Source: a virus
IMG/VR virus record: IMGVR_UViG_3300023179_000260
Coordinates: 1 to 37,802 of that record
Reading direction: 5' to 3' (one strand)
Length of the DNA stretch: 37,802 nt
Shown: one piece after another, positions 1,360 to 33,399 of the stretch
How the letters are laid out: every line of letters begins with the position of its first letter
How positions within the stretch are numbered: the first letter of the stretch is position 1
Notes under the pieces: generated by a model
The model's database searches: none
Seen by the model: only the letters and a program-made list of their open reading frames with translations
What the model was told of the DNA's origin: nothing
Program-made: the position numbers and the translations under genes

Positions 1360-3060
1360 CTACCTTCCCTTGTACCTGCTCTCCGCCTTATGTGCCTCCC
1401 ACAGTCCCTTCGCCACTTCCTTCATGCGCCCCACGATGGCGGAGAACTTGGGCGAGTGTCTCAGGAACCGGTGCCATTCTCCCGCGGTCGCATATTTGGA
1501 AGCGGCGGCGGCTGGGTTCTCCGCGAATTCTTCAAGGAATTTCTCCCTAAATCGATCATACGGCAGGCCCTCGCCCTTGGTCTCGTAAGCCTTCCGTACC
1601 ACGGCGTCAAGGTCGTTTCCTTCTGCCTCGTACATTTTCGGAGCGACGTAACGCCTGCACAGTTCTTCCACCTCCTCGTCGGAGAAGGCCCGCCCGCCGG
1701 CCACGGTCATGAACGGCTCCAGGCTGCCGAAGTGGGACTTCCATTCCCTCGCCAGTTCGTCCTTGCCGGCCACGACGCCCCTCTCCTCGTCGCTCATGAT
1801 CTTCTCGACGACCTTGCAGCGGGTCAGCTCGACCGTCGGGATGTTGTTGTTGTACCTGTCGGGTTCCACCCCCTTCACCGTCCCCTTGATCCTAACCCGA
1901 AGCCCCTCGTCGAGGCTCTCCTTGGACGCCTTCCACTTGTAGGTCTGGCCCGCGTCGTCCTTCATGACGTGCAGCGTGGTGACCCCGTAGTCCGTCGACC
2001 AGCTCCGAACCTTCTCGACCGTCAGCACGCCCTCGAACTTGTCGCCCGCCTTGAGCGTCGGGGCGGGAGGAGCCTCGGCGGGGGAGCGGCCGGGCGTGGA
2101 CGACGAAGCCCCGTTGGCCCTGTCGTACGCTGAGGGAAGGCTGGCCATCAGACCCGCAGTCCTGGCGTTGACCGTGAGGCCCTCCGCCGCGACGGACAGG
2201 TTCCAGAGGTACTGCTCGAGGTCGTCGTTTCCGGCGTCCTTCAGCGACCTGGCCCATTCTACCATCTTCTCGGCCCTCTCCCTGTCGTCGGGCCTGCGGG
2301 CGGATTCGACGTCCTCCTTGAATTTCTTCGTCTCCTTGTCCGTGGAGGCGCTGAAGAAGTAGCGCGAGACCTCGCTCGCGGTGGTGGGCTTGTTCCTCTC
2401 CTCCGATATGCGCTTGCTTACGAAGCCGAACTTCCTGATGACCGCGATGGTGGTCGCGAGGAAGTTGACCGTCTCGACCTCGTCGGACCGACGCCCGCCG
2501 CCAAGGCCGTCGAGGTCGCCCTCCATCGAGTCGGTGAGGCTCTTGAGCTCCGAGAAGTAGAGGACGTAGGCCGCGGGGTCGTCAGTTCCGAGGAAGTCAC
2601 GCAGGCAGTTAGTGCCCACCTGCTTGTACTCGCCGGCGTCGCTCTTCAGGACGAAGGTGTCCTTGCGGTTGCGGGTCGACCGGCAGTGTTCGCAGGACGG
2701 CGGGGCTGTCCTGTACTTTGTGGGTACGTCCTGGCCCGGCGAGCCCATGATCATGTTGCCGCCCTCGCCGTGAACTATGCGGGCGACGAACGTCCAGCCC
2801 TTCAGTTTCGGGGCCGCCCCGACGAGCTGCACCTGGGTCGTGGACATCTCCTGCGAGCGCCCGTCCGGGCCGGGGGTCTTCACGACCTTCCTGCCGACTA
2901 TGTCCATCGACACGGGGGGCATGCCGAGCTTGGCCGCCCTGCGGTTGAGCCTCTCCAGCTTCGCCTTCATGACGTCTAGGTCGCGGGTCAGCACCCAGTA
3001 CTTGCCGTCGACGCCCTGTTCCTGGCTCTCCTCGTTCTCCAGCCACTGCCTGAATTCCAT
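1360..3060 (-). CDS. Capsid-targeted candidate with Cys-rich and OB-fold-like regions
   Basis: This 566-residue protein begins MEFRQWLENE, matching the capsid-targeting-like leader shared by eight proteins here. The frame stays open upstream to 3144, but that stretch is a tRNA, so the ATG at 3060 is chosen. It has no ribosome-binding site; a late-promoter box ends 3 bases upstream. Visible parts are a Cys cluster (Cys123-x-x-Cys126 with Cys152, in CEHC and NCLRDFLG), charged helices at about 240-290, a Pro/Ala linker (318-336), and a beta-rich stretch at 337-420 that looks like an OB fold. Together these suggest nucleic-acid binding. Exact function is unknown. If the leader works as in T4, the protein is packed in the head, trimmed after about Glu8-10, and enters the cell with the DNA. 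Confidence 0.75.
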   Translation of the reverse strand: MEFRQWLENEESQEQGVDGKYWVLTRDLDVMKAKLERLNRRAAKLGMPPVSMDIVGRKVVKTPGPDGRSQEMSTTQVQLVGAAPKLKGWTFVARIVHGEGGNMIMGSPGQDVPTKYRTAPPSCEHCRSTRNRKDTFVLKSDAGEYKQVGTNCLRDFLGTDDPAAYVLYFSELKSLTDSMEGDLDGLGGGRRSDEVETVNFLATTIAVIRKFGFVSKRISEERNKPTTASEVSRYFFSASTDKETKKFKEDVESARRPDDRERAEKMVEWARSLKDAGNDDLEQYLWNLSVAAEGLTVNARTAGLMASLPSAYDRANGASSSTPGRSPAEAPPAPTLKAGDKFEGVLTVEKVRSWSTDYGVTTLHVMKDDAGQTYKWKASKESLDEGLRVRIKGTVKGVEPDRYNNNIPTVELTRCKVVEKIMSDEERGVVAGKDELAREWKSHFGSLEPFMTVAGGRAFSDEEVEELCRRYVAPKMYEAEGNDLDAVVRKAYETKGEGLPYDRFREKFLEEFAENPAAAASKYATAGEWHRFLRHSPKFSAIVGRMKEVAKGLWEAHKAESRYKGR

Positions 3061-3063
3061 GCA

Positions 3064-3071
3064 GTATTTAG
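3064..3071 (-). promoter_or_regulatory. Late-promoter box CTAAATAC, 3 bases before ATG
   Basis: The box matches NTANATA(C/G), a variant of the T4 late promoter TATAAATA. Only TGC separates it from the ATG at 3060, so transcription would start at or beside the start codon (leaderless). Confidence 0.55.
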
Positions 3072-3093
3072 CGACGAGCAGGGGATTTTTAAG

Positions 3094-3164
3094 AGCGGGA
3101 TGCGAGAGTTGAACTCGCCTTTCGGCCTTGGAAGGGCCGCACACAGCCGCTATGTCAATCCCGC
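3094..3164 (-). tRNA. tRNA-Gly (anticodon UCC)
   Basis: A 71-base cloverleaf folds with no mismatch in the acceptor stem (GCGGGAT with ATCCCGC). The D stem is ACAT/GTGT with a loop containing GG. The anticodon stem CGGCC/GGCCG carries the loop CTTCCAA, giving anticodon TCC. The T stem GCGAG/CTCGC carries loop TTCAACT. The variable loop is 4 bases and the discriminator base is T; no CCA is encoded. It reads GGA and probably GGG codons. It lies between two minus-strand capsid-targeted genes and may be co-transcribed with the 3194-3874 gene, then released by host RNases. Confidence 0.93.
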
Positions 3165-3921: not shown

Positions 3922-5601
3922 TTAGGAGGCTTGGACCTCGTACTCCCATCGGACTTTACCGCAGTCCCAGATTCGCGAAAGACCCCTCTCATTCGCCCAC
4001 TGCAACTCCGTCAGGTGGGAGGGGCACTGTGACTGCTTCTTGCTCTGGCTCTGCTTGCTGAATCTCCTCTTGGGGTTCTTCATGTCGACGTAGTAGTAGT
4101 CCGGGGGGAGGTCGGCCACTTTTTTGAAGCCGAGCCTATCGTAGACGCTTCCGTCACTGTATCTGTTGTCGCTCCATGACAATATTTTGTTGACCCCGTT
4201 CCCCGAGCACCAATCCGAACACGCCTTGAAGAGTTTGTTCGCGCCGCCAATGACCTGTACGCCCGGTCTGAAGCACAATCTCGTGAGGACGGCCTCCTTA
4301 GGATTCTTCTTCCTGTGGTGCCTGCCCATGTCGACCGCCCCGACCAGTTCTTCACCGTGGAAGAGCCCGAAGCACACCTCGCTGAGTTTGTTTGCCCCTT
4401 GTAGGTGATGGAGTTCACAGAACTCCTTCATCGTTTTCTTCGGAATCTCTCTGACTTCGCACTTCCTTCCCTTGAGCCTCCTGTCGAATACGCCTAGCTT
4501 AGAGAGAATAAGGCTCTTGCAGACCTCGTTCCTGTCGCGCCACTCGTCGTCGAATATGGTCAGGAGACGAATTCCCTTGTCCCGGCATCGCTTCCATTTA
4601 TCGTGGTGATAGGAACGGGTCTTGGGGCTGAATGAGTCCTCCGCGTGCCAGAATATCCCGCAGAATTCTATGGCCAATTTGGCGTCGGGGTCATATATGT
4701 CCAGTTCTCTGTTTTCTAGCACAGAAAAATCATTGTTGAATTCGTACCCAAAAGAATTCAGCCAATCTCTTATTTCATTCTGTTGCTTCAGATAAGGTCT
4801 GTTTTCTGGGAGGCACAGAGGGCTTTTAACGCCATACCTTTCCATACATGTGTCATGATACTTCTGCTTGAACGAAGGGTGTTTTGAAAAGCATTCTACG
4901 CCGTACCTCTCCAATAGCGTTTCGACCATCTTTCCTCGTATGGACTCGTTCTGGTGGGGGTGCTCAGTCCCGTACTTGGAAAGACAAGTTTCTTTTCTTT
5001 TTTCCCAATATTCTTCGGTCTGGGTAAAACTTTCCTTTCCGTATTTTTTACGGCATGTTTCCTTGTACTTTTGTTTGACCTCTTCGGATTGCATCGGCGA
5101 TTCGCATCCGTATTTGGCAAGACTTGAGGCTTTGAGTTTTTCTGCATGTTGTTTTGTCTTCGCAAAGTTCTCACAACCATAAAGCTCAAGACACTTGGCC
5201 CTCTGCTTTGCTTTTATTTCTTCATTTTTTAGTGGGCTGTCTGCGCCGTATCTCTCTAGGAGTTTCTTCTTGCGCTTTTCCTTGAAATCTTTGGATGAAA
5301 AGTAGGATTTTGACCCATACTTTTTTGAGTTAGTGTCGTTGGATTTCTCTACAAAGGCTTGGGATGTGAAATAATCTTTGGATCCGAACAGCGCAAGGCT
5401 CACCTCCTCCTTCTTCTTCAGGGTACAGGCCTTGGAGCCACAACTGTCCTTGTCGACCGTCTTATTCAACCTTGCAACGGATTTTTTGACCCTAGTGAAG
5501 ACGGTTCCACAGTAGTCGCACTGGATGTGGATTTTGGTTCTTATTGTGCAATCTTCGTAAGACCTTCCAATCAATTCCAGATTTAGGTCGTCTCTTATCA
5601 T
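3922..5601 (-). CDS. Free-standing homing endonuclease with 23-residue repeats and Vsr-like nuclease core
   Basis: The 559-residue protein has an N-terminal zinc-finger-like Cys cluster (CDYC at 28-31, Cys54, Cys59), then nine tandem repeats marked by Tyr/Phe-Gly at residues 72, 95, 118, 141, 164, 187, 210, 233 and 256, an exact 23-residue period with consensus like KEKrKeT-LekYGvespfqs-E. After it comes a nuclease core (ELDIYDPDAKLAIEFCGIFWH, then HHDKWKRC and LLTIFDDEW), typical of the Vsr/EDxHD homing endonucleases of large phages, and a C-terminal domain often found with them. The repeats probably bind DNA. No intron is visible, so it is free-standing. Its codon use is more AT-rich than its neighbours, fitting recent arrival. 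It separates the gp13-like gene from the capsid-targeted genes. Confidence 0.85.
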   Translation of the reverse strand: MIRDDLNLELIGRSYEDCTIRTKIHIQCDYCGTVFTRVKKSVARLNKTVDKDSCGSKACTLKKKEEVSLALFGSKDYFTSQAFVEKSNDTNSKKYGSKSYFSSKDFKEKRKKKLLERYGADSPLKNEEIKAKQRAKCLELYGCENFAKTKQHAEKLKASSLAKYGCESPMQSEEVKQKYKETCRKKYGKESFTQTEEYWEKRKETCLSKYGTEHPHQNESIRGKMVETLLERYGVECFSKHPSFKQKYHDTCMERYGVKSPLCLPENRPYLKQQNEIRDWLNSFGYEFNNDFSVLENRELDIYDPDAKLAIEFCGIFWHAEDSFSPKTRSYHHDKWKRCRDKGIRLLTIFDDEWRDRNEVCKSLILSKLGVFDRRLKGRKCEVREIPKKTMKEFCELHHLQGANKLSEVCFGLFHGEELVGAVDMGRHHRKKNPKEAVLTRLCFRPGVQVIGGANKLFKACSDWCSGNGVNKILSWSDNRYSDGSVYDRLGFKKVADLPPDYYYVDMKNPKRRFSKQSQSKKQSQCPSHLTELQWANERGLSRIWDCGKVRWEYEVQAS

Positions 5602-11336: not shown

Positions 11337-12718
11337 TTTGTGGGCAGGAAACCCATACTTTTGTCGTCAAAAGTTGGCTCCGCTTCGGAGCCAACCCTTT
11401 AGGGCATGGGAGGAATGCCCACGACAGCAAAAAATAATGTTTTACCCGCTTTTCTCCTTTGTAAAAAATTAAACCATCTGCATATATACGAGTGGTATAT
11501 GAAACAGATACGAACCGTTAAAATACGACTGAAGGTTGCGAACAGTGTGTTCAAGCCGACGCTTGAAGCATACACGAACGCCTTCAACCAAGTATGCAAG
11601 ACCGCTTGGGACAACCAAGAGTTCAACGGAGTCCGTCTGCATCACCTCACCTACAAGCGTTTGAGGGAGGAAACCAAACTCAAATCCCAACTTGCGATCT
11701 CCGCAAGGGTCAAGGCAACAGAGGCTCTGTCCTCCGTCCTTGCGAGGAAGAAGAAGGGGAAGAATGTTTCCTGCCCGCAAAGCAAGTGTTGCGCCATAAG
11801 GTACGATGACCGAAGTCTGACTGTTGATTTTAAGACCAACACAGTCAACATCCTGACCATCAACGGAAGGGTCAAGATTCCGATCTCCGTACCCAAGTAT
11901 TTTGAACAGTACCTTTCCTGGAAAAGATGTTCCGCCGACCTTTTCCAGACGAAGGGAAAGACCTTCCTGCACATTGTTTTTGAGCGGGAAGTTGAGGATA
12001 TTCAGCCTTCCGGCGATTTCGTCGGAGTTGATCGTGGAATAAGGAACCTTGCTGTCACGAGCGACAACAGGTTCTTCGGCGGAAATAGGATCAAGAGATT
12101 GAGCGAAAGATATGAGAGGTTGAGAGGCGAGTTGCAAAGCAAAGGCACTCGCTCCGCAAGGACACACCTGAAGAAGATCAACAGGTGCGAACGGCTCATG
12201 CGGAAGGACATCAACCACTGTATTGCGAAGAAGATAGTTGAGGGGTTGAAACCCGGCACGACGATTGTTCTTGAGAAGTTGACCGGAATCCGTGGCGGAG
12301 CGAGGAAACTCAACGCCGAGGAAAGAAAGGAAGGCAAAAAAACCTTGAGAAAGGCACAAAGGAAGGAAGTCAACAAGTGGAACTTTTTCCAACTTGAGCA
12401 GTTTCTCGCCTACAAGGCTCTTGCAAAGGGCTGCAATGTTGAATATGTGGATGCCCGCTACACATCGCAAGGATGCAGCAAGTGCGGCCATGTCGCAAGA
12501 GGCAACAGGCAGTGCCAGTCCTTTTTCAAATGTAAAAAGTGCGGTTTTCAACTTAATGCAGACCTCAATGCTTCTCGCAATATTGTTCTCAAACATTTGG
12601 ACGCTACATGCCATCCAAACAAGGTAAATGTCAATTTGCCTAACGGCGGTTGTGAAACTGCTAATGTTCACCTTCGGGTTTGAACAAGCCCACTCGCTTT
12701 AGCGGGTGGGTAATTGAC
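11337..12718 (+). mobile_element. TnpB-only element of the IS200/IS605 type
   Basis: A TnpB gene is flanked by structured ends. The left end has a perfect 10-bp stem at 11373-11382/11386-11395 and a 6-bp stem at 11402-11407/11415-11420. The right end has a 9-bp stem at 12689-12697/12702-12710 (one T-G pair) followed by TAATTGAC, which is typical of such elements. No TnpA transposase is present, so mobility would depend on one in trans. Exact ends are estimated to within a few bases: joining the flanks restores a late-promoter box 6 bases before the ATG of the 10164-11333 gene. Confidence 0.7.
11499..12683 (+). CDS. tnpB: TnpB RNA-guided endonuclease
   Basis: The 394-residue product has the split RuvC nuclease site with Asp178 (GVDRGIRNLAV), Glu259 (IVLEKLTG) and Asp355 (NADLNASRNI), and the zinc finger between the last two (Cys326, Cys329, Cys345, Cys348). 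These are all intact, so it is probably active. TnpB cuts DNA matching a guide carried on an RNA made from the right end of its element. The frame is open upstream to 11406, but the ATG at 11499 gives the usual N-terminus (MKQIRTVKIRL). Codon use is less GC-rich than the phage genes, which suits transfer from elsewhere. The strongly biased antisense frames inside it are shadows. Confidence 0.92.
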   Translation: MKQIRTVKIRLKVANSVFKPTLEAYTNAFNQVCKTAWDNQEFNGVRLHHLTYKRLREETKLKSQLAISARVKATEALSSVLARKKKGKNVSCPQSKCCAIRYDDRSLTVDFKTNTVNILTINGRVKIPISVPKYFEQYLSWKRCSADLFQTKGKTFLHIVFEREVEDIQPSGDFVGVDRGIRNLAVTSDNRFFGGNRIKRLSERYERLRGELQSKGTRSARTHLKKINRCERLMRKDINHCIAKKIVEGLKPGTTIVLEKLTGIRGGARKLNAEERKEGKKTLRKAQRKEVNKWNFFQLEQFLAYKALAKGCNVEYVDARYTSQGCSKCGHVARGNRQCQSFFKCKKCGFQLNADLNASRNIVLKHLDATCHPNKVNVNLPNGGCETANVHLRV

Positions 12719-16554: not shown

Positions 16555-19356
16555 ATGGCAATCCTAAAGGGCTTTCCACCCTCGAACACAATTTCGCCCT
16601 CGGTCAGAATAACCGAGAAGGACCTGAGCTTCATCGCTCCGGAGCAGTCCTTCCACCGAGCGGGCCTTGTGGGCTTCGCGAGCAAGGGTCCGATCAACAT
16701 CCCGACGGTGATACGCTCGCGCAGGCAGCTCAACACAGTGTTCGGGTATCCGCACCCAGAGGCCGGCGACCCCTACCTCATCTACGCGGCCGAGCAGTAC
16801 CTGCTCGTCGCCAACGAACTGTACGTGGTTCGCGTGGCGGACACCGACCCGGTGAGCTGGGAGCGGGCAAAGACGGCGAGCGTGGACGCCCCGTCGGCGG
16901 GCGGCCAGGTGACGATGGTTTCCGACGCGGCCGGCCCCTACAGCCTCGACAAGGACATGTACTTCCGTTGGAGACTCAACGGCGTGCTTTCCTCGAAGAC
17001 CCTCGTGGCCCTCGCCGACGAGAACCACCCGGATCCGAACGTGAAGAACGACGGGTACAGCGCGTCGCAGCTCGCAGAAGACCTCAACCTCCAGATCGAC
17101 CCTGCGGTCGACGGCATCGAGTTCTTCTCGACTACGGAGCAGATCAGCTTCGTCGAAGCAGAGGAAGTTACCACATCGCAGACAGACACCGACGCAACCT
17201 TCCAGCTAAAGTCGTCGGTGGCAGGATTCTGGAGCACGCGAGACATAGTGGCCGGAACCATCACTGGCCGCGTCATGGTCAACGGCGTGGTCGTGCAGTC
17301 GTTCTCCGTGAACGACCAAGGCGACTTCAGCTTCCGCCAGGTGGTCAGTTCCGCGGTCAAAGCGATCGGCGGCACAGTCAACCTTTCGTCTGGCCAAGTT
17401 ACGCTGGAGTACAACGCAAACCTGCCTGCCTCGACCTCATCGTCGTCGGCAGGAGCGAACAAGATTTATGTGGACTACAAATACAAGTCCACATTCGCGA
17501 CCTCAAGGATCGGCGTGAGGACGACTTTCTCGTTCGGACCGACCGCCAGCCTCGAGCTAGTTTCGGTCGCTGACGCGCTCTACGGGCCGACCTCGGTCGA
17601 CCCCGGCAGCAAAGTCCATGTCGGACCTACCGGCCTCGGAACCGGCATGACCGTTGCCCAGACGACGGGAAGCGCGGAGGAGAACTACGACTTCACATCG
17701 CTGTCGTCGTTCGACCTTCAGGTGGTTGTGGACGGAACGGACAATGTGCTGATCGACAATGTCGTTCAGGTTATTGACCTGTCCGAACTCAGCTCTGAAT
17801 CGGCCGCCACGGCTTCGGACGTGGTCGACGAGATCAACGCCAAGATAGCGGATGGGGATGTCCCCGGCGGGTTTGAGGCCGTAGAGGTCGGCGGGTACGT
17901 TTCAGTTCGTACGCTCCACGCGGGCAACGACGCAAGGCTCCTCGTGAAGAACGAGAGTTCCGTGTTCGAACTTCTCGGGTTCGACGCCCCGCTCATCGAC
18001 CCGACCAATCCCACCATCCTCAACGAGCCGGGTGGGACGAACCAGGGCTTCTACATCACCGCCGAGGGCGACTCGCCGGAGGGAGTGAGTGGCGACGCTT
18101 CGATTGCCACTTACGGCCTCGTGAATGGCGACAGCAACCGATACGGCGATGTGTCGCTAACCTTCACGGCCGACTCGGCTGGCATCGATGGCAACGCGAC
18201 CCAAGTCGTCGTCAAGAACAACATCCGAGAGGGAAACTTCGTGCTGGAGGTCTACAACAACGGCGTTCAGGTCGAGTCTTGGGGCAACCTGTCCAAGGAC
18301 GAGACGAGCCGCTACTACGTTGAGACCTTCCTCACGCTGGTCTCCGACTACGTGAGGGCCACGGACAACGCGGCCAACCCGGCTCCCCCGCTCGACGGCA
18401 CCTACACGCTGTCGGGCGGTTCGGACGGCATACCGGCCGATCCGGACGACCAGGACTACTTCCTCATCGGAAACCAGAGGGGCTACACGGGCATTTACTC
18501 CCTCAGCGAGCCGGAGCAGATCGACCTCGACCTCGTGGCCATACCGGGTCACAGCTCGACGAACGTCGTGCTCGCCCTAATCGACATGGTGCAGAACCTT
18601 AGGACGGACGCCATGGCGATCATCGACGCTCCCTTCGGGCTCACCGTAAGGGAGATCGTGGCGTGGCAGAACGGTGCTCACCCGCTGAATACCACTCGCT
18701 TCGACTCTGACTTCGCGGCCCTTTACTGGCCGTGGGTCAAAATCCGCGACGCCTTCAACAACGTCGACGTGTGGGTTCCGCCGTCAGGTTCCGTGATGGC
18801 CGTTTACGCTCGCAATGACGCTCTCGCCGCACCGTGGTTCGCCCCGGCCGGCGTGAACAGAGGAGTGGTGCCCGGCATCACAGACGTGTTCAGCCGTCCG
18901 ACCCTAGAGGAGAGAGACCTGATGTACGGCAACAGGAACGCGATCAACCCGATCGTCCAGTACGCCGACTTCCAGGACTTCGTGGTTTGGGGCCAGAAGA
19001 CGCTGCAGCGCAGGCCTACGGCCCTCGACCGCGTGAATGTTCGCAGACTGATGTTCGTCATCGAGAAGAGGATTCGTGCCGCTTCGCGGGCGCTCCTGTT
19101 CGAACCGCACGACGAGCTCTTCCGCGCCAGGTTCGTGGACTTAGCCACGGCTATCCTCCAGGACATCAAGGTGGGTCGCGGACTCACGGCCTTCATCATC
19201 AAGGCAGACGAGGAATTGAACACGCCGGACGTGATCGACAGGAACGAGTTCCGTGCCAGAATCGGCGTGCAGCCGACGAAGGCTGTCGAGTTCATGTTCA
19301 TAGAGTTCAGCATCCACAGGACGGGGAGCTTCGAGGCAGGTTCGGACACCTTCTGA
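16555..19356 (+). CDS. 18: Contractile tail sheath protein gp18
   Basis: The 933-residue product is a tail sheath protein. The N-terminus (SPSVRITEKDLSF, then GFASKGPINIPTVIRSRRQLNTVFGYP) and the C-terminus (ALDRVNVRRLMFVIEKRIRAASR, LFEP, then NEFRARIGVQPTKAVEFMFIEFSIHRTG) carry the conserved core handshake domains; APAGVNRG and the LDLVAIPG-type segment lie between. T4 gp18 has 659 residues, so this protein has about 270 extra. The excess lies in the middle third (about residues 200-620), which is rich in Thr, Ser, Val and Asp and would lie on the sheath surface. A GGGAG ribosome-binding site precedes the ATG. The tube gene follows directly. Confidence 0.95.
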   Translation: MAILKGFPPSNTISPSVRITEKDLSFIAPEQSFHRAGLVGFASKGPINIPTVIRSRRQLNTVFGYPHPEAGDPYLIYAAEQYLLVANELYVVRVADTDPVSWERAKTASVDAPSAGGQVTMVSDAAGPYSLDKDMYFRWRLNGVLSSKTLVALADENHPDPNVKNDGYSASQLAEDLNLQIDPAVDGIEFFSTTEQISFVEAEEVTTSQTDTDATFQLKSSVAGFWSTRDIVAGTITGRVMVNGVVVQSFSVNDQGDFSFRQVVSSAVKAIGGTVNLSSGQVTLEYNANLPASTSSSSAGANKIYVDYKYKSTFATSRIGVRTTFSFGPTASLELVSVADALYGPTSVDPGSKVHVGPTGLGTGMTVAQTTGSAEENYDFTSLSSFDLQVVVDGTDNVLIDNVVQVIDLSELSSESAATASDVVDEINAKIADGDVPGGFEAVEVGGYVSVRTLHAGNDARLLVKNESSVFELLGFDAPLIDPTNPTILNEPGGTNQGFYITAEGDSPEGVSGDASIATYGLVNGDSNRYGDVSLTFTADSAGIDGNATQVVVKNNIREGNFVLEVYNNGVQVESWGNLSKDETSRYYVETFLTLVSDYVRATDNAANPAPPLDGTYTLSGGSDGIPADPDDQDYFLIGNQRGYTGIYSLSEPEQIDLDLVAIPGHSSTNVVLALIDMVQNLRTDAMAIIDAPFGLTVREIVAWQNGAHPLNTTRFDSDFAALYWPWVKIRDAFNNVDVWVPPSGSVMAVYARNDALAAPWFAPAGVNRGVVPGITDVFSRPTLEERDLMYGNRNAINPIVQYADFQDFVVWGQKTLQRRPTALDRVNVRRLMFVIEKRIRAASRALLFEPHDELFRARFVDLATAILQDIKVGRGLTAFIIKADEELNTPDVIDRNEFRARIGVQPTKAVEFMFIEFSIHRTGSFEAGSDTF

Positions 19357-25349: not shown

Positions 25350-26447
25350 ATGGCCGAAGACTCGTTCAGACCACAGAAGAGGCAGATATCGCAGGATGAG
25401 ATTTCGCAGGATTCGTCCGCAGAGGGGGCCACGGAGCAGCTCGAGGCCATGGCGGCCATGAGGAGAAGGGCCTCCGAAGAGATCAACGAGGACTTCCAGG
25501 AGCCGCAGGGCGAGCTGGCACAGCGGGTCAAGGGCAACGTTCCGGAGGTCTTCAAGAGGGCCGCCCGCAACCAGTCGGCCGCGCCGGCTCCGCAGAAGAA
25601 CCAGGACATGAGGGTCACGGGGAGCGGCAAGCTCGAGGAGCTCATCGCGGGAATCGGTACGCGTGGCAACATGGTCTTCGAAAAGATAGAGCTGCCCTCC
25701 AAGGGCAAGTTCTACAACGGCGAGGACGGGCCGACGGACGGGGTGATCCACATCAGGCCCATGACGGGCGAGGAGGAGGAGATTCTCGCCACTCCGAGGT
25801 TCGTCAAGAAGGGCCAGGCAATCAACATGATCTTCAACCGATGCATGAGGGAGAGCTACGACTCGGCCAACTTCCTCACCCAAGACCGAACCTACATGCT
25901 GATCTACCTGCGGGGCATATCGTACACCCCGGAGTACGACGTCGAGGTGAGGGACCCCGAGACCGACCAGACATTCGCGACGACGATCAACCTCAACGAC
26001 CTGTTCGTGGACTACTGCAGGTCGGACTTCGGGGCAGAAAACCTGGAGGACGTGTTGCCGGTCACGGGGTACCGTTTTAGGTACCGCCTTGCGGTCGGCA
26101 AGGACGAGCAGTTGATACAGGACTACCGCGAGCGTCGGGCCAAGAACTTCGACCTTTCGGGACAGGCGGACGACACCCTGCTCTACCGCACGGCTCACCT
26201 GATAGAGGAGATAGAGGGGCTCGGCGACAAGAGCGAGATTCAGACCCTCCTGAAGAAGCTTCCCATTCAGGACGTGGCCTACCTGAGGACGGTGGTGAAC
26301 GAGCCTCCGTTCGGGGTGGACACGAAGATTTCCATCACGAACCCCTATAGCCTGCGGGACTTCGAGATCGAGCTGCCGCTAGAGTCGAATTTTTTCTTCC
26401 CTCGGGCAAAGAAAAAGGCGACGGCGGTATCGAAGACGCAAGTCTAG
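25350..26447 (+). CDS. 26: gp26-like baseplate hub / tail assembly protein
   Basis: The 365-residue product (start ATG at 25350 after AGAGAGGGAC; the open frame upstream is not coding-like) has an N-terminal charged region, then FEKIELPSKGKFYNGEDGP and HIRPMTGEEEEILATP, then INMIFNRCMRESYDSANFLTQDRTYMLIYLRGISY. This order is that of the T4 baseplate family including gp26 and gp51: LPSKG-(K/L)-Y, RPMTG-(E)-E, LL-DR-x-x-L-x-x-LR-x-SY. These proteins help assemble the baseplate hub and tape measure. The 3' end carries the run AAAGAAAAAG and a reading frame in -1 continues for 70 codons past it, so a longer frameshift product is likely. Confidence 0.8.
   Translation: MAEDSFRPQKRQISQDEISQDSSAEGATEQLEAMAAMRRRASEEINEDFQEPQGELAQRVKGNVPEVFKRAARNQSAAPAPQKNQDMRVTGSGKLEELIAGIGTRGNMVFEKIELPSKGKFYNGEDGPTDGVIHIRPMTGEEEEILATPRFVKKGQAINMIFNRCMRESYDSANFLTQDRTYMLIYLRGISYTPEYDVEVRDPETDQTFATTINLNDLFVDYCRSDFGAENLEDVLPVTGYRFRYRLAVGKDEQLIQDYRERRAKNFDLSGQADDTLLYRTAHLIEEIEGLGDKSEIQTLLKKLPIQDVAYLRTVVNEPPFGVDTKISITNPYSLRDFEIELPLESNFFFPRAKKKATAVSKTQV
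26408..26417 (+). promoter_or_regulatory. Candidate -1 frameshift site AAAGAAAAAG
   Basis: Within the last 14 codons of the gp26-like gene, the in-frame codons AAG AAA AAG follow an A, giving two A-AAG tetramers and a G-AAA-AAG heptamer. The -1 frame is open from 26402 to 26629 and contains the small 54-codon frame. Confidence 0.55.
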
Positions 26448-26464
26448 AGCTCTGGGATGGGCTC

Positions 26465-26629
26465 ATGGAGGAGATGTTCTTCTTCATGTACCACATGCGC
26501 CAGAGCAGGGACAACTTCCTGTCTTTGCCCATAAACGAGAGAAAGTGGATGATAGACCGCTTCATCAAGCAGAAGGAACGAGAGAGCGAAGCCATGGAAT
26601 CGGCCAAGAAGAAGGCCAAGAGGAGGTAG
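26465..26629 (+). CDS. Tail assembly chaperone extension, made by -1 frameshift or separate start
   Basis: A 54-codon frame reads MEEMFFFMYHMRQSRDNFLS and then LPINERKWMIDRFIKQKERE, with a very basic C-terminus (SAKKKAKRR). A Met/Phe-rich helix, LP-x-x-x-R-x-W-(M/L)-I-(D)-R-(F/Y) and a charged tail is the form I associate with the downstream partner of tail assembly chaperones. The ATG at 26465 has no ribosome-binding site, and the frame continues openly upstream into the gp26-like gene, so fusion by -1 frameshift at 26408-26417 is the likelier route. Its stop lies 1 base before the TTG start of the next gene. Confidence 0.65.
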   Translation: MEEMFFFMYHMRQSRDNFLSLPINERKWMIDRFIKQKERESEAMESAKKKAKRR

Positions 26630-31317: not shown

Positions 31318-33399
31318 TCACGCCTCGCACGAAGAACAAGTGAGTATGGAGCGGGCGAGTTCCTGCGCCGGGTTCGCCGACCTCTGGTAGTAGAATGTCT
31401 TGACTCCCATCTGCCAACCCTCGATGAGCAGGCTGTTGACGTCCTTTGGGGAGGTCGAAGGGGGAACCATCAGGTTGAGGCTCTGCGACTGATCTATGTG
31501 CTTCTGCCTCTGGGCGGCCTGGATGACGACCTCCTTTTGCGATATCTCGCCGAAGGTCTTGAAGACGTCCTTCTCCTCCTTGGTCAGGAAGTCCAAGTGC
31601 TGGACGGATCCGCCCTTCACGAGGATGCTCTTCCACGTCGCCTCGTCGTTCCTGTCGTACTTCTTCAGGACTTCCTTGAGGTACGGGTTCTTGTATGTGA
31701 ACTTGCCCTTGGCGAGGTTCTTGACGAAGTAGTTGCTGTTCAGGGGCTCGATGCTCGGACTGACCTGCCCGAGGATGAAGCTGCTGGATGTCGTGGGGGC
31801 TATGGCGAGGGTGGTGACGTTCCTGCGTCCGTATCCCTCGAGCAGGGGCGGCTCGCCGTAGTCCTTGGCCATCTGTTCCGTGGTTTTGTCGGCCCGCTCG
31901 CGCACTGTCTTCCATATCTCCGCGTTCTTCATCTTCGCCTCCATGCTCTCGAAGGCGATCATCTTGCTTTGAAGATAGGAGTGCCACCCGAGAGCCCCGA
32001 GCCCCAGGGCTCTTTGTTCCATTGCGAACTTGCGGGGGGCTTCCATGTATTTGACGCCCTCCGTCTTGCGGATGAACTCCTCGCAGACCGAGTCGAGAAA
32101 CATGACCATTGTCTCGACCGCGTCAGTTTCGACCATCTCGTCCCAGTGCAGCAGGTTGAGGCTGGACAGAACGCACACGAACGAGTTGTTCTCGTCCGAG
32201 AACAGCTGAATCTCCGAGCAGTTCCCGGTGAGGACGCCGTTGAATACGGCCTTGTGTTCTTTCGGCTCGTTGACGCAGTAGGTGTCGCTTTTGCCCGCAG
32301 GGGCGATTTCGATGACTTCCGTCCTGACCAGCCTTCCTCTGCTGTCCGTGAAGCGGAGAAGTTCGTCGCCCGGCTTGAGGTCGGCGGCCCTGACCTCCGT
32401 TCCGTCCTTGAGGTAGAACTTGTGGTACTCCGTGGTCTTGAGGCTAGGGAACTTGAGGGACTGCGTGTCGTCGTCGTCCAATTCCCTGACCACGACCTTT
32501 ACTTCCAGAAGTGCCTGGTCCGATCCGGTCTTGCGGATCACGGTCTTAGACCACTCCTTGCCGTTCCAGACCTCAACCTCCTTGCCTTCGTGCTCGCCGA
32601 TCGCGATCTCTCCCTCTCGGGTGAGGAGCATGGTGTCCGGGGAGACGCACAGGTTGCTCGCCTTGATCTTAAGTTTCTTTTCCTTGTAGACCTTGGGGGC
32701 GTTCTTGTTCGCGGTGTCGACGAACATAATGTACGGATATCCGGTTTCGAACCGCTTCTGGATGACCTTGGCCCAGATGGCCCGCTTCTCCTTGTCGCCC
32801 TCGATGAGGTCTTTCATGAACTTGTCGGTGACCGTCACGCCGATGCTCATGTTCTGGATGCTGTGTCCCTCGCTCCTGATCCTGAGGAACTCCTCTATGT
32901 CGGCGTGCTCAATCGGCATGTAGGCCGCGAACGATCCGCGGCGTGCGCTACCTTGGCTGATGACCTCGCTGATCTTGTCGAATATCTCCATGAAGTGGAC
33001 GGCCCCACTGCTCTCGCCGCCCACGCTGATCTTCGTGCCCCTCGGCCTGAGGGCACCGAAGAATCCGCTCGTGCCTCCGCCCATCTTGCTCATGATGCCG
33101 ACCTCAGCCGCCTTCGTGAGGATGCTCTCCATCTTGTCCTCGACGAAGCTGCCGAAGCAGCTGACCGGGAGCCCTCTCTTGTTCCCGAAGTTGCACCAGA
33201 CCGGGGTCGCGAGGGAGTAGAAGCCCCGCTTCATGTATCCCTCGAACTTGTCAGCGAAGCCCTTGACCTTGAGGATGGACTCGGCGTTCTCCGCTATCTG
33301 TCTTATCCGCTGCTCAGGGGTCACCCCCGGCTCAAGGTAGCCACGCTCTAGGAAGAGGCGGCTGTGGGAGTTGAGCCAATAATAGTCCTTGCTGTTCAT
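31318..33399 (-). CDS. nrdA: Ribonucleotide reductase large subunit with intein
   Basis: The 693-residue precursor is a class I NrdA. Cys81 (GLPVSCFGS) and Cys394 (NCSEIQLF) are active-site Cys; the motif Asn-x-Cys-x-Glu (SNLCSE) is rebuilt only after removal of residues 251-393. The C-terminus has the redox pair CSSC. The N-terminal ATP cone is missing, so the mature protein (about 550 residues) may escape dATP control. It converts ribonucleoside diphosphates to deoxy forms with NrdB, which is encoded next upstream. The start has AAGG before it. Antisense frames over this gene are shadows. Confidence 0.95.
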   Translation of the reverse strand: MNSKDYYWLNSHSRLFLERGYLEPGVTPEQRIRQIAENAESILKVKGFADKFEGYMKRGFYSLATPVWCNFGNKRGLPVSCFGSFVEDKMESILTKAAEVGIMSKMGGGTSGFFGALRPRGTKISVGGESSGAVHFMEIFDKISEVISQGSARRGSFAAYMPIEHADIEEFLRIRSEGHSIQNMSIGVTVTDKFMKDLIEGDKEKRAIWAKVIQKRFETGYPYIMFVDTANKNAPKVYKEKKLKIKASNLCVSPDTMLLTREGEIAIGEHEGKEVEVWNGKEWSKTVIRKTGSDQALLEVKVVVRELDDDDTQSLKFPSLKTTEYHKFYLKDGTEVRAADLKPGDELLRFTDSRGRLVRTEVIEIAPAGKSDTYCVNEPKEHKAVFNGVLTGNCSEIQLFSDENNSFVCVLSSLNLLHWDEMVETDAVETMVMFLDSVCEEFIRKTEGVKYMEAPRKFAMEQRALGLGALGWHSYLQSKMIAFESMEAKMKNAEIWKTVRERADKTTEQMAKDYGEPPLLEGYGRRNVTTLAIAPTTSSSFILGQVSPSIEPLNSNYFVKNLAKGKFTYKNPYLKEVLKKYDRNDEATWKSILVKGGSVQHLDFLTKEEKDVFKTFGEISQKEVVIQAAQRQKHIDQSQSLNLMVPPSTSPKDVNSLLIEGWQMGVKTFYYQRSANPAQELARSILTCSSCEA
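32221..32649 (-). other. Mini-intein within NrdA (143 residues)
   Basis: Residues 251-393 of the precursor interrupt SNL/CSE. It begins with CVSPDTMLLTREG (block A), has KTTEYHKFYLKDG (block B-like) and ends VFNGVLTGN before Cys394. No endonuclease is present. The penultimate residue is Gly, where most inteins have His. Splicing should join Leu250 to the catalytic Cys394. Confidence 0.93.

Follow-up and report, generated by a model that had tools for sequence, protein, structure and literature searches.

The gp26-like gene of this virus very probably encodes a PF12322-family tail assembly chaperone that is made in two forms, the longer one by a -1 slip on T TTT TTC. The window (IMG/VR virus record IMGVR_UViG_3300023179_000260, analysed over its whole length of 37.8 kb) carries T4-like genes for the tail sheath, sheath stabiliser, tube and SbcC/SbcD-like exonuclease subunits, together with genes for both ribonucleotide reductase subunits. 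The gp26-like gene sits 5.4 kb downstream of the tube gene, and no tape measure gene was recognised beside it in the window. Its product matches PF12322 T4_baseplate (E = 2.5e-10; 40.9 bits, exceeding the curated cut-off of 24.5) and phrog_150 (E = 7.3e-13), placing it in the family of T4 gp26 and gp51. A programmed -1 frameshift yielding a long chaperone form had been proposed in the initial annotation of this DNA, and comparative sequence now strongly supports it, with several corrections of detail. The gp26-like frame, previously taken to end at AAG AAA AAG (26409-26417), continues for ten more codons. The end assigned to the -1 frame was right, as was its translated product (MEEMFFFMYHM...WMIDRFIKQK); its opening lies at 26351 rather than at 26402. 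Across the junction, third-position GC shifts into the -1 frame.

Table 1 Features of the gp26-like locus, in window coordinates
Feature	Position	Strand	Details
gp26-like gene, short putative chaperone form (TAC-N)	25350..26447	+	ATG 25350 to TAG 26445-26447; 365 aa
-1 open frame, stop to stop	26351..26629	+	Ends TAG 26627-26629
AATTTTTTCTTCCC, nearly invariant element surrounding the putative slip	26388..26401	+	From comparison with relatives
Slippery heptamer T TTT TTC, putative -1 slip site	26390..26396	+	In register (AAT TTT TTC)
C-terminal extension (TAC-C), as read after the putative slip	26396..26629	+	77 codons plus stop; conserved protein sequence
First ATG of the -1 frame	26465..26467	+	Not conserved; many relatives have an Ala or Leu codon here; inside first predicted helix

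T TTT TTC is the only canonical in-register heptamer within the overlap of the two frames. All 34 distinct sequences of the initial IMG/VR relative set, in which the window is counted, carry it in register, 39-57 nt upstream of the 0-frame stop. A wider scan recovered it in register in 72/72 -1 loci checked, a sample biased by the degenerate patterns used to find the loci (one pattern covered the NFFFP residues, in degenerate codons), and no second in-register copy occurs in the last 1,000 nt of these 72 genes. When 35 sequences are aligned by codon, exactly 3 of the 83 conserved degenerate columns are synonymously invariant, and these three are the TTT TTC TTC of the putative slip site. As a bare string, TTTTTTC occurs in the window about as often as expected (5 observed, 4.9 expected); it is the register, position and synonymous fixation of the heptamer across relatives of ~45-87% protein identity that are not due to chance. 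A search for a slippery site at the same position in relatives, suggested in the initial annotation, thus returned T TTT TTC. A conserved 3' stimulatory RNA structure was not found among the relatives, the consensus being weak (-5.7 kcal/mol); the single-sequence fold after the slip has z = -3.0, mostly from a hairpin beginning ~50 nt downstream. In three loci (L122, L124 and L131), the 0-frame stop comes 105 nt past an unchanged heptamer, and the overlap of the frames thereby reaches deeper into the extension than elsewhere.

Read through the slip, the fusion would run ...ESNFFLPSGKEKGDGGIEDASLELWDGLMEEMFFFMYHM... and total 426 aa, compared with 365 aa for the short form. In the predicted structure of the extension (pLDDT 83), a first helix begins at residue 13 after the slip and is followed by a turn and then a long helix. 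No ATG, GTG or TTG occurs in the -1 frame until ATG 26465. As the initial annotation had observed of the small frame, a ribosome-binding site is lacking: no Shine-Dalgarno-like sequence precedes that codon in the window. Coupled re-initiation at this ATG, which would make the small frame a separate gene, is physically possible, the codon lying 18 nt past the gp26-like stop, and an ATG follows close behind the stop in many near relatives too. We nevertheless regard this alternative as improbable. Of 68 distinct relatives, 27 lack an ATG between the slip site and the FFFxYH core and have Ala or Leu codons instead, and 14 of the 68 have none of ATG, GTG and TTG there. A Shine-Dalgarno-like tetramer precedes the ATG in 8 of those relatives that have one, so no ribosome-binding site is conserved, and the finding named at the outset as one that would speak against a frameshift was not made. 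The -1 frame also holds conserved residues (SLxLW) upstream of the first ATG, and the first predicted helix begins 13 residues before it; initiation at 26465 would, according to the model, remove half of that helix. Re-initiation furthermore leaves the frozen T TTT TTC without an explanation. The arrangement of the locus, with a second overlapping frame in shifted phase at the 3' end that lacks its own conserved start, and with a slippery site (T TTT TTC) in register at a conserved position, is that expected of a TAC-N / TAC-NC pair.

Other origins of the two frames fare no better. Slippage of RNA polymerase on the run of six Ts would give mixed mRNAs and hence a fusion of transcriptional origin. 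Six Ts are short for transcriptional slippage; moreover, the codon register is kept exactly across relatives, and many members of the family with a +1 layout lack a long run (TTT CTT TGG, TTC TTT CGT), which fits slipping tRNAs, and we consider the transcriptional route slightly less probable still than re-initiation. A slip at AAG AAA AAG, the position proposed in the initial annotation, has in its favour that this sequence is A-rich and within the overlap. It contains no heptamer of the X XXY YYZ type, a -1 shift would re-pair AAA to GAA with a mismatch, and the sequence varies among relatives, whereas the conserved candidate T TTT TTC lies ~19 nt upstream; a slip at the A-rich run is accordingly very unlikely. 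Homopolymer runs are prone to sequencing and assembly errors, and the T run is one, so that a single long gene could in principle have been broken artificially. The frames recur, however, in dozens of independently assembled contigs as well as in phages that were isolated and sequenced, such as RaK2, 121Q, PA5oct and Atu_ph07, which refutes this and reduces its probability to practically nil.

Under the favoured -1 slip, the majority of ribosomes would yield the short form and a minority would step back by one nucleotide at T TTT TTC, the tRNA-Phe on TTT and that on TTC both being able to re-pair with TTT. Slipped ribosomes would bypass the 0-frame stop and produce the long form, which would end in a helical C-terminal domain. 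If the two forms are analogous to lambda G and GT, their common part would coat the tape measure protein, with tail tube protein recruited by the C-terminal domain. Sequence directly shows the site, the constraint on it, a -1 coding frame whose start is not conserved, and homology to T4 gp26 and gp51 through PF12322; the slip, its rate and the chaperone role are inferred.

A chaperone role is also suggested by structure and gene order. In the AlphaFold model of the gp26-like protein, residues 224-321 have two tail assembly chaperones as their top two structural matches, 3klu (B. subtilis YqbN; Z = 6.6) and 2ob9 (HK97 tail assembly chaperone; Z = 5.3), both of modest score (Z < 8) and aligned over ~80-90 residues of the core at 8-10% identity. 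YqbN is a phage chaperone homologue that belongs to the XkdN type. Plain Foldseek with the same model gave no match at E = 0.001, and a sequence search of solved structures returned nothing for the gp26-like profile and noise for the extension. The extension (window 26459-26620) matches PF20546 DUF6760 at 21.4 bits, below the cut-off of 27; this DUF family may be a chaperone C-terminal domain family. In SP-15, LIS04 and immuto the genes run sheath, tube, gp26-like, extension, tape measure, which places the gp26-like gene and the extension as lambda G and T are placed. Mel-JY01 probably shares this order, its extension being followed by a further small ORF and then by a long unnamed ORF. T4 gp26 and gp51 have been listed as hub assembly chaperones (PMC3004832). 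For the gp26-like protein, the mechanism of chaperoning would be that of its analogues.

Every distant PF12322 phage member examined has, at the same FF position, a second frame in shifted phase. The layout is -1 in LR756511, XacN1, RAS14, Atu_ph07, Phosso, Vibrio 2.275.O, PA5oct, Munch, CBB, 121Q, RaK2, SCTP-2, XaC1 and two cyanophages, and +1 in SP-15, LIS04, GXN1, Mel-JY01, immuto and LR756508, the +1 contexts being TTT or CTT TGG C and TTT CGT. In Escherichia phage 121Q, T TTT TTC stands 12 nt ahead of the stop. Within the SP-15/immuto branch, the +1 frame encodes the domain, at the homologous site, in 106 of 106 classified loci, according to automatic calls that take the longest shifted extension. 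At least 600 IMG/VR stretches encode proteins related to the immuto-type chaperone. Those examined are all +1 and share a conserved TTT or CTT ahead of TGG CCT GAC, a context that resembles known CUU-type +1 shift sites. No confirmed relative was found in cellular genomes by pattern scan, and none in plasmids searched with the SP-15 protein.

In the family tree the -1 and +1 kinds are interleaved, with at least three gains or losses of the -1 label, two of which are required by branches with good support. The T4 rows are long, and where they belong in the tree is unsure. T4 gp26 and gp51 are both full-length PF12322 proteins, and gp51 alone has an extension of ~48 aa. This gp51 tail scores above all 2,000 shuffles against the extension family profile, with a low score, a weak match to the frameshifted domain; direct hhalign comparison of the profile with T4 gp26 or gp51 is also weak, PF12322 serving as the bridge. 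In contrast to the gp26-like locus, T4 has two separate genes and no frameshift. We think it reasonably likely that the PF12322 chaperones descend from one ancient recoding locus, at which the direction of slipping switched on more than one occasion between -1 (T TTT TTC or T TTT TTT) and +1 (TTT or CTT TGG C, or TTT CGT) at the same residue position and which T4 resolved into two genes.

Frameshifted tail assembly chaperones of this kind have been described before: according to citing papers, Vladimirov, Gautam and Davidson (2022; doi 10.1016/j.virol.2021.11.003) identified those of T4-like phages. Their account reportedly names T4 genes 26 and 51 and describes frameshifting as retained in several T4-like groups, with which the present analysis agrees. 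T4 has long been given as the exception among long-tailed phages, in which G-T frameshifting is otherwise conserved (PMC5009743). As later papers cite Vladimirov et al. 2022, poly-T -1 signals occur in T4-like TAC-N genes (PMC12846349), and some T4-like phages have separate short and long genes that replace the frameshift (PMC10885494). The kind is therefore already known, and the view expressed in the initial annotation, that the T4 gp26 family lacks good descriptions of frameshifted chaperones, is out of date. In the same cited descriptions, T4-like chaperones have short and long forms and poly-T -1 signals, as at the gp26-like locus; the present lineage of huge phages, with its element T TTT TTC, comes from this analysis. 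The heptamer of lambda gpG/gpGT is different from T TTT TTC. The chaperone of the Vandenendeviridae phage Adele (PMC12846349) is similar in its -1 shift, in a conserved poly-T (GTTTTT) and in an extension annotated as a separate gene, although Adele belongs to a different phage family from the huge phages with gp26-like genes. What appears to be new, as far as checked, is this lineage of huge phages, how strongly its site is constrained, and the switching of direction within one family.

These results correct the annotation of many jumbo phage and cyanophage genomes, in which the small frame is called a separate hypothetical protein or a 'baseplate hub assembly catalyst', and they support the reading that T4 divides the lambda G/GT design between gp26 and gp51. 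In cultured phages of this family, three ways of making one protein pair (a -1 shift, a +1 shift and two genes) can also be compared. The name 'baseplate hub assembly catalyst', given to the cyanophage extension, is the one used for T4 gp51. Small ORFs annotated in public phage genomes as SP15_046, KNV73_gp038 and the cyanophage 'baseplate hub assembly catalyst', located at L052 (4896-5015), L057 (4827-4937), L151 (3121-3258) and L152 (3136-3240), resemble internal fragments of the frameshifted C-terminal domain.

Several other features of the window were recorded. The tail sheath gene (16555-19356, +) encodes 933 aa, over residues 11-924 of which the general sheath profile of 496 positions is spread, and the sheath therefore contains large insertions. 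The large subunit of ribonucleotide reductase (31318-33399, -) has a weak match to an intein splicing domain, below the cut-off, at residues 317-592. A homing-endonuclease-like protein with strong PHROG matches is encoded at 3922-5601 (-), and a gene of the IS605 OrfB / Cas12f1-like (TnpB-type) kind at 11406-12683 (+). A tRNA-Gly (TCC) gene at 3093-3164 (-) overlaps the GTG-started end of the ORF at 1360-3144, the start of which is therefore probably further in.
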